From the NCBI GenBank assembly GCA_903844895.1, contig CAIMVM010000317.1, forward strand, positions 1-48,271: a stretch of 48,271 nt of DNA, in the 5' to 3' direction. Below the pieces are notes generated by a model. The model worked only from the letters and a program-made list of their open reading frames with translations. It was not told the DNA's origin and made no database searches. Position 1 is the first letter of the stretch, and each line of letters opens with the position of its first letter. The position numbers and the translations under genes were made by a program. This stretch comes from an uncultured Pseudomonadota bacterium (lineage in GTDB: Bacteria > Bdellovibrionota_B > Oligoflexia > Oligoflexales > CAIMVM01). Positions 13,165 through 44,846 of this stretch are shown one piece after another.

Positions 13165-13776
13165 CTAGGAGACGGTTTCTTCTTTTAAAATTTTGGAAAT
13201 CGTTCCTAAAGAGATAGAAAGCTTACTGGAAATTTCCCTAAAGGTACACCCTTCAAGTTTGAGCTTTCGCGCTTCGGCAATAAGGTCGTCGTCGTATTTT
13301 TTGGGAGCTCCCAGCTTTACCCCCCTCTTTTTAGCTGCGTCTAATCCCGCTCTCACTCGCGCTACAATAGTGTCTCGCTCGATTTCTGCGATTTCAGCAA
13401 ATGCAGCCAGCATGGTTCTGCGAAAAGGGTTTTCGTGCCCCAAGTTTAAAACAGGTTGAGTTACGGAAATGAAGGCAACCCCAGCATCATCTAGGGATAG
13501 AATCATACGTATGGCTGTACTAGCATTACGAGAAAAACGATCCAATCGGTAAACCACTATCGTGTCGATTTGGCCTTTGAAAGCCGCATCCATAAGTGCT
13601 GTTAGGCCTGGGCGGTTGGTTGTTTTCCCTGAAATCCCTTCGTCTTTAAAAATGAGTGTTTTTTTAGGTTTTTTTGCAATTGGCAGATCTTCCATCCATT
13701 TTTCAACGGCCCCTTTTTGGCTGGCCAAGTCTTGCTTGTCTGTTGAAACTCGGTAATAAATGCCAATGTGTTTCAT
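13165..13776 (-). CDS. serine site-specific recombinase (resolvase/invertase family)
   Basis: A 203-residue small serine recombinase. The catalytic domain begins 'IGIYYRVSTDKQ' with the nucleophile Ser11. 'VVYRLDRFSRN' carries the conserved active-site Arg residues. The E-helix region runs through 'FAEIAEIERDTIVARVR', and 'GVKLGAPKK' links to a C-terminal helix-turn-helix 'EISSKLSISLGTISKIL'. Such proteins invert or resolve DNA between short crossover sites. The start is preceded by AAAGGGGGG. It is solitary: there is no transposase and no clear pair of long inverted repeats in the window. Imperfect similar strings (GCGGCTTTCAATTT near 13141, GCGCGCTTTCAAAC near 13806) flank the gene and might be remnants of sites, but the match is short. 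Confidence 0.93.
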   Translation of the reverse strand: MKHIGIYYRVSTDKQDLASQKGAVEKWMEDLPIAKKPKKTLIFKDEGISGKTTNRPGLTALMDAAFKGQIDTIVVYRLDRFSRNASTAIRMILSLDDAGVAFISVTQPVLNLGHENPFRRTMLAAFAEIAEIERDTIVARVRAGLDAAKKRGVKLGAPKKYDDDLIAEARKLKLEGCTFREISSKLSISLGTISKILKEETVS

Positions 13777-13902: not shown

Positions 13903-15168
13903 TTATATCTTGCCTGCATAATGTGCAAAATAAGCTAAACCAAGTTTTGCAAATTCAGCAGCTAAGGGGAAATTCCCAGAATTGGCTGAGGTATCACCCG
14001 TGGTGTGGATTTTTTGGTTATAATTGGAAGCATCTTCAAATGGAAAAGCCGCCTTAAATCCGCGAGACGTCCAAGAACGGTGATCTGAGGTGCCTCCAAA
14101 AACTGCCTTTTCGCTGACAGGAAGTTTCTGATAATTGGTGACTAGTGTTTGAAGTTCCTTGTTAAGTGAAGGATTTGTGTCATTAGTTACAAACCACATA
14201 ATCAGGTCTTTAGATGTCTGATACAAATTCATGTCAAATTGGACCATAGAAACTACATTTACCTTTCGCTGCTGATAGTCTTTGGCCATATTGGCTGAAC
14301 CATAGAGGCCGGCTTCTTCAGCGGCATAGCCATGAATTTCAATCGTGCGGTCAAAGGTCCAGCCCGAATTCATTATAACTCTAAATACCTCTAAGTTCGT
14401 GGCTGTACCGGAAGCATTGTCATCAGCGCCAGGGGCCATGCCACCACGTTGACCTTGATTGATCGAGTCAATATGGCTTCCGATCACGACCACTTCATCG
14501 GGCTTGGTTTTTCCAAGAATTCTCACCCTAATATTATCCTGAGGGGAGTTTTGATTCTTAAAGAAGTCTATGCTTACATCGGATCTTCCCTTCGCAAGAG
14601 CTTCATAGCGTTCTTTTAAGAACGAAGGGACTTTTATGCCAGATTCACTTTTGTGATATCGTGTACCCATGTTTTCTAAATCGCTGACGTCTTTTTTGAT
14701 ATTATCCAAATCTACTTGGTTTTGCCCTTTTAAGACTTGGGGAAGAACATCCTTAGCTGAATAAATAGGCGTAGATGACGCCAAAAGCTCTCCTGATAAG
14801 TCTCTTTCTCCATCTAGTTTAATCACCATGCCGCAAGCGCCCAGACTTCCGTGCAGGGCTCCTGAAAGTCTTTCTGCTCTAGAATCCTGCATGCGCATTA
14901 AAGCAAAATCATGTTCAACGAACTGGACAACTGTCCCGTAGGTCTCTAACACGTCTTTGACATTTAGAAGGATCGGTAGTTTTACAATATAGAGATCTTT
15001 AAATTCTTTTTGATTTAAGCTATCTGCAGTTAAATTCTTAGTAAGACCCTTAAAGACTACATTTCCACCTAAAAAATGGTCTCCTTTAGGAGTGATCTGA
15101 AACTGATCACCTTCTGAGGCAGCAAGAATGGGAAGCAGGGCAAGGGCAGCTAGCGACATTTTTTTCAT
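13903..15168 (-). CDS. exported M28-family zinc aminopeptidase
   Basis: A 421-residue secreted peptidase. A signal peptide (MKKMSLAALALLPILAAS) is followed by a propeptide-like region, then an M28 domain with all five metal ligands in order. These are His232 in 'IGSHIDS', Asp249 in 'APGADDNASG', Glu284/285 in 'AEEAGLYGS' (base plus ligand), Asp312 in 'VQFDMN', and His388 in 'KIHTTGDTS'. The set matches Vibrio-type leucyl aminopeptidase, which removes N-terminal hydrophobic residues outside the inner membrane. AGGAG lies 7 nt before the ATG. A TTGTAT - 17 - AATATT promoter candidate lies about 80-110 bases upstream. It is a monocistronic unit with its own terminator. Confidence 0.93.
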   Translation of the reverse strand: MKKMSLAALALLPILAASEGDQFQITPKGDHFLGGNVVFKGLTKNLTADSLNQKEFKDLYIVKLPILLNVKDVLETYGTVVQFVEHDFALMRMQDSRAERLSGALHGSLGACGMVIKLDGERDLSGELLASSTPIYSAKDVLPQVLKGQNQVDLDNIKKDVSDLENMGTRYHKSESGIKVPSFLKERYEALAKGRSDVSIDFFKNQNSPQDNIRVRILGKTKPDEVVVIGSHIDSINQGQRGGMAPGADDNASGTATNLEVFRVIMNSGWTFDRTIEIHGYAAEEAGLYGSANMAKDYQQRKVNVVSMVQFDMNLYQTSKDLIMWFVTNDTNPSLNKELQTLVTNYQKLPVSEKAVFGGTSDHRSWTSRGFKAAFPFEDASNYNQKIHTTGDTSANSGNFPLAAEFAKLGLAYFAHYAGKI

Positions 15169-15337
15169 GAGAATGCTCCTTTGATGGATTCTGTCTAAGA
15201 CTAACGTTAACTGGCCGGCTAGTCAATATAGGTGGAAAATATTTTGTTTTTTTTGAGGGAATACAAGATTGAGTTTCCAGTTTTCCTTCCCACTTTGGGG
15301 TGCGAGTTCGTCTGGTGGGTCCTTTTCCTCTCAGTTT

Positions 15338-15513
15338 TAAAAACAGCGGCCCAGGTAAAACCTAGGCCGCCTCCCCCCTAATCGACTAGATGGTCATCTA
15401 ATCGTGCTTAGCAAACGATACCAAAATGCCGCAATGCCGACTTTTGGTCTATAGTATCAAGTGTTCTGTGGAACCTCAGGAAATCTGGTTGGTGCCGGTT
15501 TCGGCACCAACCA
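15338..15513 (-). ncRNA. candidate structured RNA ending in an intrinsic terminator
   Basis: Read on the minus strand, four stems follow in 176 bases of non-coding DNA. (1) A perfect 12-bp hairpin TGGTTGGTGCCG / CGGCACCAACCA with an AAAC loop (15513-15486). (2) A 7-bp ACCAAAA / TTTTGGT stem (15448-15420), extendable by GATAC/GTATC. (3) A 9-10-bp hairpin (15404-15383). (4) A 10-pair terminator stem GCGGCCTAGG / CCTGGGCCGC (15370-15346) followed by TGTTTTT. In stems 3 and 4 the only imperfect pair is C-A on the plus strand but G-U on the minus strand, which argues for minus-strand transcription. A TTAAGA - 16 - TAAATT promoter candidate lies upstream (about 15560-15590). It could be an independent small RNA, a structured 3' end of the glnN mRNA, or a leader/attenuator of the peptidase gene 170 bases downstream. 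It matches no RNA family I know. Confidence 0.5.
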
Positions 15514-15639
15514 CCAAGAGAGGTAACAACTGACATCTTGTGTCTCTTATGTTTAGTTTCTTAGAATTTAGCTCCTTTTTTTAGAGTCTTAACTTCTCCC
15601 CATTTTTTGTATCTTAAACCTGAATGCATCCCTCAGGAC

Positions 15640-17820
15640 TTAGCGTAGACGGTGAGAAAACAACAATTCACGATAGCGAGGTAGTTTCCAAAAATCTCCA
15701 GAAACAATGCGTTCCGCTTGATCTGCATGGCTACGAAGAACGTCGGAAATGGCCTTAGTTTCTGCGTGATAGTTTGAAACTGCATGGAGCTCATAACTTT
15801 CACTAGAGATAGGGTTTTCGTTGAAATTCTTTAAGTCTCTAATTCCCTTAAGAAGTCCTGAATAGACCTCTTCGATGTCTTCAATACGTTTACTAAGGTC
15901 TTTCTTTAGCGAGGACGTAAGTGCTTTCTCTAAAACAGCAGAAGAGAGTTGTAGTTGATGTTCAACCGCGGGGATGACGTATTCGACAATCATTTCAGAG
16001 AGTGTTGCATTTTCAATCTCGAGTCTTTTTTGATATTGCTCCATGCGAACTCGGTATCTAGCCAAGACTTCTTCACTTGAAAGAACTTTTGTTTGGGCGA
16101 GAAAGTTTGTTTCTCTGGCATCTAAGAGTACCGAAAGACCTTCATAGGTAGTTTTGGACTCGACGAGGCCTCGTCTTTTGGCTTCCTCTTCCCATGCGCT
16201 AGAGTAGCTGTTTCCGGAGTGCAAGATGCTTTTATTCTCTTGATACAGCTCGTGTATCAAACGAATGACGGCTTCGTCGCGATTTGAGGTTTCTTTCATG
16301 TAACTTTTAAGTCGGTCTTTAGCTTCTTTAAGAGCATGGGCAACGGCTGCATTTACAATAGACATGGGAAAAGCAACGGTGGCAGCAGCGCCTACGCTTC
16401 TAAACTCAAACTTATTTCCAGTAAAGGCACAGGGACTTGTGCGATTTCCATCTGCATAGTCTCGAGTCAGGCTGGTGATTTGTGTGATGCCAAGATTTAT
16501 GTCGCGCTTAGTCTGACTCGACGGTTTATCTAAAAGAGTTAAAGATTCAAAAACTTGCTCGAGCTCTTGACCTAAATAAACTGAGAAAATTTGTGGCGGG
16601 GCTTCATTGAAACCTAATCTCAACTCGTTTCCTCGAGACATCATGCTTGCAGAAATCACTTCGTGATGTTCTGAAAGTGCCTTTAAAATAACGGAAACGA
16701 TGGCGAGGAATCGAAGATTTTGATGGGGGGTTCTTCCTGGATCTAGAAGATTCTCGCCTTTATCGTTAGCTAAACTCCAATTGCAATGTTTTCCTGAACC
16801 GTTGACCCCCGCAAAGGGCTTTTCGTAAAAGAGACATGCGAGACCGTGTCGGTTCGCGACACGTTTCATGACTTCCATCGCTATGGAATTATGATCGGCT
16901 GCCAGAATGACATGTTCAAATATAGGGGCCATCTCATATTGACTAGGAGCCACTTCGTTGTGCCTCGTTTTCACTGGGATGCCGAGTCTATACAGCGTCG
17001 TTTCCATTTCGTCCATAAATGCCAATACACGTTCTGGAATAGATCCAAAATAATGGTCTGCTAGTTTTTGACCTCGCGAAGACACGGCCCCGATAAGAGT
17101 TCGTTTCGCCAGAAGTAAATCAGGTCTTTGCCGAACTAACTCGCTTTCTAAAAGGAAATACTCCTGCTCCACCCCTAGGGTTGGGTAAACTTCTTTTACA
17201 TCTACGTCACCGACAAGCTTTAAGAACTCGCAAGCTTCATCGTTTAAAGCTTCTACTGAGCGAAGCAAAGGTGTTTTATTGTCGAGTGCTTGGCCATGAA
17301 ATCCGACAAAAACGGAAGGTATACAAAGAGTCCTCGTCCCGCCGTTTTCAACGATGAACAACGAGGATGTATGGTCCCATGCCGTGTAGCCTCTGGCCTC
17401 AAATGTGGACCGCATACCTCCTGAGGGAAGACTTGAAGCATCTGGTTCCCCTTGCACTAATTGAGTGCCAGAAAATCGCTCAATAACCGTTCCCACGTGG
17501 ATCGAGGTAGACTGCATGGCAATAAATGCATCATGCTTTTCGGCTGTCATACCGTTCATGGGCTGAAACCAATGACAGAAATGAGTGGAGCCTTTAGAAA
17601 TAGCCCATTCTTTTATGATCTGCGCAATAGCGTCAGCCGTTTTAGGTTGAACTTTCTTTTTGTGGTCGAGGCATTTTTGGAGGTCTAGGAACTCTTCAGA
17701 AGCGAGTCTGTTTCGAATCTGACTGAGCGTCAAAGTAAGTTCACCGAAAAATTCGGACACAGGCAACCGCATAGGTTTATTGCCAGTGGATGGCGCATGA
17801 CTTTCATACGTTGTTTTCAT
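15640..17820 (-). CDS. glnN: glutamine synthetase type III
   Basis: A 726-residue GSIII, the long form (usual length about 700-730, against about 450 for GSI). It makes glutamine from glutamate, ammonia and ATP in the cytoplasm. GSIII hallmarks include 'THFCHWFQPMNGMTAEKHD' near the N-terminus, 'TLGVEQEYFL', the central 'TRHNEVAPSQYEMAPIFE', the ATP-site 'GVNGSGKHCNWSL', and 'SRGNELRLGFNEAPP'. AAGG lies about 11 nt before the ATG. The gene is divergent from the adenosine-deaminase-like gene, with 243 bases between. No PII or NtrC gene is in the window. The transcript runs into the candidate structured RNA region. Confidence 0.96.
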   Translation of the reverse strand: MKTTYESHAPSTGNKPMRLPVSEFFGELTLTLSQIRNRLASEEFLDLQKCLDHKKKVQPKTADAIAQIIKEWAISKGSTHFCHWFQPMNGMTAEKHDAFIAMQSTSIHVGTVIERFSGTQLVQGEPDASSLPSGGMRSTFEARGYTAWDHTSSLFIVENGGTRTLCIPSVFVGFHGQALDNKTPLLRSVEALNDEACEFLKLVGDVDVKEVYPTLGVEQEYFLLESELVRQRPDLLLAKRTLIGAVSSRGQKLADHYFGSIPERVLAFMDEMETTLYRLGIPVKTRHNEVAPSQYEMAPIFEHVILAADHNSIAMEVMKRVANRHGLACLFYEKPFAGVNGSGKHCNWSLANDKGENLLDPGRTPHQNLRFLAIVSVILKALSEHHEVISASMMSRGNELRLGFNEAPPQIFSVYLGQELEQVFESLTLLDKPSSQTKRDINLGITQITSLTRDYADGNRTSPCAFTGNKFEFRSVGAAATVAFPMSIVNAAVAHALKEAKDRLKSYMKETSNRDEAVIRLIHELYQENKSILHSGNSYSSAWEEEAKRRGLVESKTTYEGLSVLLDARETNFLAQTKVLSSEEVLARYRVRMEQYQKRLEIENATLSEMIVEYVIPAVEHQLQLSSAVLEKALTSSLKKDLSKRIEDIEEVYSGLLKGIRDLKNFNENPISSESYELHAVSNYHAETKAISDVLRSHADQAERIVSGDFWKLPRYRELLFSHRLR

Positions 17821-44117: not shown

Positions 44118-44160
44118 AAAAAACACACGTCATGAATCAGGTTCATGACGTGTGTTTTTT
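44118..44160. terminator. bidirectional terminator between convergent genes
   Basis: A perfect 19-bp inverted repeat (44118-44136 / 44142-44160) has a 13-bp core ACACACGTCATGAA-type stem and a 5-base loop. It is flanked by six A on the left and six T on the right, so it works for both the HD-GYP gene and the CHAP-like gene. Confidence 0.95.
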
Positions 44161-44201: not shown

Positions 44202-44846
44202 TTAGCTTTTACATGCGTACTTTCTATTGCAGGCAGCAGTTCCGCCTTTACTTTGAATACAAATAGAGATCATTTTAGGACCGCAAATTAATGGCGCCTT
44301 TGCAGCAACCTCAGCAGAGCTAAAGCTCAAGGATGAAAACGAAGAAGGAACATAGACTCGCGGTGCGGCGCAGGTCGTCTTAATCTGCCCACAAAAGTCA
44401 GAACAAGCACGCCCTCCTCCAACTGCAATTTCAATATGCCCGTGGGTAGCACTGTATCCGCACTGACCTGGACTCCATACGATCACCGAGCCTAAGGGAG
44501 CATTTTCTGGATAGACTGACGATTTCTTAAGTTGAAAAACTCGCGCTAAATCGTTTGGATTGCGATCCGCCCAATCCCCAAATTGGTAGGCTGATCTTTC
44601 TGGAACCGATGTATTTTCGATCTTGTAGCCAATAACTCTTCTAAGAGCGCCCCAAACAAACTCATAACAACGCCCAGCGGAATAGCCTTGGCTTCCGTTA
44701 AGGGCAGATTGTGCTAAAGAGCGACCCAAATTGGAACTCGCAGTTTCCGAGCTCTCTACTTCCTCTATTTTTTGGGAATTGTAAAGATTACATCCACCCA
44801 AGGTTATTAGGCCTGCAAGAAAACCGATTTTCACAAAATGATTCAT
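44202..44846 (-). CDS. CHAP-like lipoprotein with C-terminal Cys module
   Basis: 214 residues from ATG 44846, chosen because AAAGGAG lies upstream and a clean signal MNHFVKIGFLAGLITLGGC follows (lipid Cys19); an ATG at 44882 would add 12 residues. Residues 55-165 look like a CHAP/NlpC-type amidase or peptidase: Cys60 in 'GRCYEFVWGAL' would be the nucleophile, and His137 in 'THGHIEIAVGGG' the base, after 'LGSVIVWSPG'. Such domains cut peptidoglycan cross-links or stems. The C-terminus (188-212) is the module C-x7-C-[IL]-x9-C-x2-K-x2-C, also present twice in the lipoprotein at 29677. Enzyme assignment is by motif only. Confidence 0.72.
   Translation of the reverse strand: MNHFVKIGFLAGLITLGGCNLYNSQKIEEVESSETASSNLGRSLAQSALNGSQGYSAGRCYEFVWGALRRVIGYKIENTSVPERSAYQFGDWADRNPNDLARVFQLKKSSVYPENAPLGSVIVWSPGQCGYSATHGHIEIAVGGGRACSDFCGQIKTTCAAPRVYVPSSFSSLSFSSAEVAAKAPLICGPKMISICIQSKGGTAACNRKYACKS

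Follow-up and report, generated by a model that had tools for sequence, protein, structure and literature searches.

The 471-nt non-coding gap between glnN, which encodes a type III glutamine synthetase, and an M28-family peptidase gene contains an element of four predicted hairpins on the minus strand, the strand of both genes, and the last of these hairpins is an intrinsic terminator. We give a probability of about 0.5 to the reading that the element forms the far end of a lineage-specific, structured glnN 3' UTR of ~300 nt, which would have its terminator end near 15340 and could be the source of a small RNA. All coordinates refer to the window, i.e. the whole 48,271-nt stretch of DNA analysed here.

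A structured element between glnN and the M28 peptidase gene

The features of the region, listed from glnN towards the peptidase gene, are:

15640-17820, minus strand: glnN, glutamine synthetase type III (Pfam GSIII_N, 2.9e-65; Gln-synt_C, 1e-23)
15619-15637, minus strand: weak 5-6-bp hairpin (CCTGA..TCAGG) followed by TTTAAGAT, at best a weak terminator (hairpin scan)
15565-15592, minus strand: weak promoter-like site TTAAGA-16-TAAATT, the highest-scoring one ahead of the RNA (weight-matrix scan)
15514-15523, minus strand: CCUCUCUUGG, alternative partner of GGGGGGAGG or, through its CCUC, of GAGG 15474-15477 (pair probabilities)
15486-15513, minus strand: stem 1, a perfect 12-bp hairpin with an AAAC loop (hairpin scan, pair probabilities)
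15463-15474, minus strand: small 4-bp hairpin, context-dependent (fold prediction)
15420-15448, minus strand: stem 2, ~11 bp including one U-G pair, interrupted by a single bulge (fold prediction)
15383-15404, minus strand: stem 3, 9-10 bp, one of them a U-G pair (fold prediction)
15370-15378, minus strand: GGGGGGAGG, predicted to be paired, and the closing arm of a multi-branch domain if the element folded alone (pair probabilities)
15345-15371, minus strand: stem 4, intrinsic terminator of 11-12 bp followed by GTTTTT (terminator scan, pair probabilities)
15198-15226, minus strand: M28 promoter-like site, TTGACT-17-TAGTCT, overlapping a 20-bp imperfect palindrome (weight-matrix scan)
13903-15168, minus strand: M28-family peptidase gene with its own AGGAG ribosome site (Pfam Peptidase_M28, 7.4e-34; sequence)

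The first-pass annotation had placed the element in non-coding DNA, and this was borne out, with all open reading frames inside it being at most 49 aa long. A 42-aa frame starting at 15536 was considered as a leader peptide and rejected, and lacks a good ribosome binding site. Downstream of the peptidase gene lies a serine recombinase gene (13165-13776; Pfam Resolvase, 4.6e-36), possibly the trace of a mobile element.

All four stems described earlier were found, and on the minus strand GTTTTTAAAA comes directly after stem 4. In each of four transcript contexts containing the terminator, their mean pair probabilities were 0.95-0.99; the small hairpin at 15463-15474 is a possible fifth one, and an addition to the four-stem account. 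The 201-nt minus strand has a predicted folding energy of −82.7 kcal/mol, whereas its dinucleotide shuffles average −55.3 kcal/mol (sd 4.3), giving z = −6.35, and none of the 200 shuffles was as stable as the element. Against a sample of non-coding windows from its own genome (399 out of 584 windows; mean z −0.34, sd 1.29), the element ranks first by z (−6.5), and no window has a lower energy per base, although the element shares this minimum. Perfect hairpins of at least 11 bp are rare (only nine in 220 kb), and only one other pair of strong hairpins lying within 190 nt was seen. No further copies of the element were found in its own genome. The predicted stability of this four-hairpin structured element is thus beyond chance.

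When read on the plus strand, the same 201 nt fold at −65.3 kcal/mol (z = −4.04), making the minus-strand fold 17 kcal/mol more stable. The imperfect pairs in the stems at 15383-15404 and 15345-15371 are C-A on the plus strand and G-U on the minus strand, as had been claimed, and a third wobble (15440/15429, in the stem at 15420-15448) is likewise G-U on the minus and C-A on the plus strand; finding all three as G-U on the minus strand has p = 1/8, which taken alone is weak. We consider it sound, on these predicted folds, to call the minus strand the RNA strand.

Termination downstream of glnN

Stem 4 (15371-15345) has 12 pairs, eight of them G-C, and the tail GTTTTTAAAA, and qualifies as an intrinsic terminator, the only one found in the region; a scan of 601 bp should by chance contain about 0.8 such patterns, which makes the pattern alone weak, but the stem is long. 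Elsewhere in the window, a perfect 19-bp hairpin with an A-run on one side and a T-run on the other (44118-44160, directly 3' of the minus-strand gene at 44202-44846) looks like a strong bidirectional terminator. Counted from the glnN stop codon, no strong terminator occurs before the one spanning +268 to +295, with only the weak 5-6-bp hairpin located before the element, and the glnN mRNA therefore most likely runs through the element.

This arrangement was compared with the 3' ends of other glnN copies, using a strict hairpin rule that misses imperfect stems. The same genome contains a second type III glutamine synthetase (L048, G000 C222:7607-9700; 45% identical), whose clean 12-bp terminator spans +24 to +52. 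Relatives in the nearest family have a terminator-like hairpin within ~100 nt of the glnN stop codon (L022-L024 by eye, L027 by scan), and the gene following glnN is a convergent gene in these genomes, not the peptidase gene. The recognised glnN terminators of the relatives and of L048 are single hairpins, mostly located ~10-100 nt past the stop codon; such a long tail is therefore not usual for glnN, which argues against the 3' UTR reading.

If the glnN transcript does extend this far, RNA polymerase would meet no strong terminator past glnN until 15371-15345, and the tail of the mRNA would fold into three strong, closely spaced hairpins with the terminator behind them. Such a tail should resist 3'-to-5' decay and so stabilise the glnN message, and cleavage in the A/U-rich spacer (15530-15640) might leave a stable small RNA of ~185-200 nt. 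The genome contains an RNase E/G homologue (4.4e-95), which would be a possible processing enzyme, with GlnZ as precedent (PMC9731577).

The GGGGGGAGG segment and the closing helix

The GGGGGGAGG segment in front of the terminator had been likened to a ribosome binding site, which is not supported: it is predicted to be paired rather than free, with a mean pairing probability of 0.75-0.86, partly to CCUCUCUUGG. The helix between GGGGGGAGG and CCUCUCUUGG would enclose stems 1-3 as one multi-branch domain, and has a probability of 0.76 in the element alone versus 0.20-0.42 in longer transcripts, where the CCUC often pairs with GAGG 15474-15477 instead (up to 0.67). Judged from these pair probabilities, the exchange of CCUC partners could make this a two-state element, an idea which is given little weight because purine and pyrimidine runs pair easily. 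Its furthest extension, a new lineage-restricted structured RNA class in which the closing helix switches partners (CCUC with either GAGG or GGGGGGAGG) and which acts as metabolite or protein sensor in nitrogen control from the glnN 3' end, is very improbable.

Conservation in related genomes

A lack of covariation or conservation in relatives had been named beforehand as the refuting outcome, and no conservation was found, in a comparison of little power as the sets searched contain no close relative: the genome of the window is the sole member of its family in these sets. BLAST searches of ~58 genomes of the phylum returned only the element itself and a 25-nt match (96%, in G026), the best BLAST relative, which represents chance, being located within a frame that encodes an unrelated protein. 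A single-sequence covariance model also recovered only the element itself from the phylum genomes, with all others at 15 bits or less (E about 0.2-2 per genome), and the matches of 12-15 bits in five relatives are at chance level. The plasmid search gave no match, the viral contigs contained no copy of the 12-bp hairpin, and three weak 32-nt matches in phages, lying under genes annotated as hypothetical proteins, were unconvincing.

The nearest glnN relatives are only 57% identical, and a non-coding RNA might therefore be unrecognisable at that distance; scanning of genome contigs with glnN gave only copies with 41-48% identity, too distant for the RNA. As same-family genomes are absent from the sets, a lineage-specific RNA is not refuted by the missing conservation, which in these sequence comparisons makes a functional RNA class of old age less likely. 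With no homologue found in these sets, neither conservation nor covariation was seen, and this counts against the explanation as a glnN 3' UTR.

Alternative explanations

The first-pass annotation had offered a small RNA, a glnN 3' UTR and a leader or attenuator of the peptidase gene, and the glnN 3' UTR fits best, being favoured because there is neither a good promoter for a separate transcript nor a strong earlier terminator. A free-standing small RNA of ~190-220 nt, transcribed from a promoter in the 15530-15640 spacer to the same terminator, and either trans-acting or protein-binding, is a possible but doubtful alternative. It would agree with the compact, self-contained predicted fold with its terminator and with the two conformations between which the CCUC segment can alternate, and lineage-specific structured intergenic RNAs without outside homologues have been documented in Bdellovibrio (PMC3627812). 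However, the best promoter-like site upstream (TTAAGA-16-TAAATT) has a score equalled by chance about once per 150 bases, leaving alternative sigma factors as a possibility, and neither Hfq nor ProQ was found in the genome with Pfam (with E. coli and other controls positive). This absence is uncertain, because the assembly consists of 372 contigs and its completeness is 95.6%; with neither protein found, there is no support for a small RNA of the classical chaperone-dependent type. It is unlikely that the hairpins have no RNA role beyond termination, being a strong terminator next to drifting inverted repeats, with the 12-bp palindrome perhaps a protein site at the DNA level. While that would explain why conservation was not found, why the plus-strand fold is significant too (z = −4.0) and why the 12-bp palindrome lacks a U-run, it does not sit well with the 17 kcal/mol advantage of the minus strand and its three G-U wobbles out of three, with the first place of the element among the 399 sampled non-coding windows, or with the lack of further genome copies, which shows that it is not a dispersed repeat.

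An M28 peptidase leader or attenuator, in which a ligand or leader peptide switches the terminator, is very improbable, despite the hairpin block and terminator being upstream of and codirectional with the M28 gene and the CCUC having two alternative partners. The peptidase gene starts ~170 nt beyond the terminator and behind its own strong promoter-like site: TTGACT-17-TAGTCT is sigma-70-like and the best in the gap, with a score that an approximate weight matrix gives roughly once in every 5.7 kb of strand, and it predicts a transcription start 23 nt before the peptidase ATG, with AGGAG in front. The presence of this promoter-like and ribosome site past the terminator makes a peptidase leader unlikely, and in addition forbidding the terminator costs ~19 kcal/mol, no strong competing antiterminator fold was seen, and a match in Rfam is absent. 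The 20-bp imperfect palindrome overlapping the promoter-like site (15207-15226, TTAACTGGCCGGCTAGTCAA) is, from its sequence, a possible repressor operator.

Comparison with known RNAs

None of the Rfam 15 covariance models matched the window at gathering threshold, or 15170-15640 at E≤10, in agreement with the earlier view that the element resembles no known riboswitch. By eye, motifs or partner genes were missing for a sigma-54 promoter, CsrB-like GGA loops, a retron, a T-box, attC and a hammerhead. While 6S RNA is similar to the element in size and high stability, it is a rod with a central bubble, whereas the element is predicted to form four separate hairpins, and 6S RNA (RF00013) had no match at E≤1 across the genome, although E. 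coli and other controls were positive. The glnA RNA, a glutamine riboswitch class in Rfam, shares the nitrogen-metabolism context, but had no match at E≤10, and the element is located 3' of glnN rather than 5'. In kind the element is ordinary, a 3' UTR or small RNA candidate, and an orphan without homologues in the sets searched. In Bdellovibrio bacteriovorus, RNA-seq identified the attack-phase RNAs APsRNA1-7 and merRNA, the latter containing a c-di-GMP riboswitch (PMC3627812); these are also structured intergenic RNAs confined to one lineage, but are known from RNA-seq, whereas the element comes from sequence alone and has no Rfam riboswitch.

The closest parallel is with GlnZ, which is released by RNase E from the 185-nt 3' UTR of enterobacterial glnA and is Hfq-dependent (PMC9731577). 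Both are located 3' of a glutamine synthetase gene and end in an intrinsic terminator with a U-run, and the putative RNA released from the element would be of similar size (~185-200 nt); the differences are that the gene is of the GlnA type for GlnZ and GSIII for the element, that the GlnZ seed UUGCCGUGGAAA is absent from the element on reading, and that GlnZ depends on Hfq, which was not found in the genome of the element. By this analogy the element is a positional analogue of GlnZ, and not a member of its family. If transcribed, it would provide another glutamine synthetase mRNA with a structured 3' RNA that is possibly separable, from a lineage that has been little studied and in which neither Hfq nor ProQ was recognised, and this would suggest, if true, that nitrogen-linked 3'-UTR RNAs have evolved independently.
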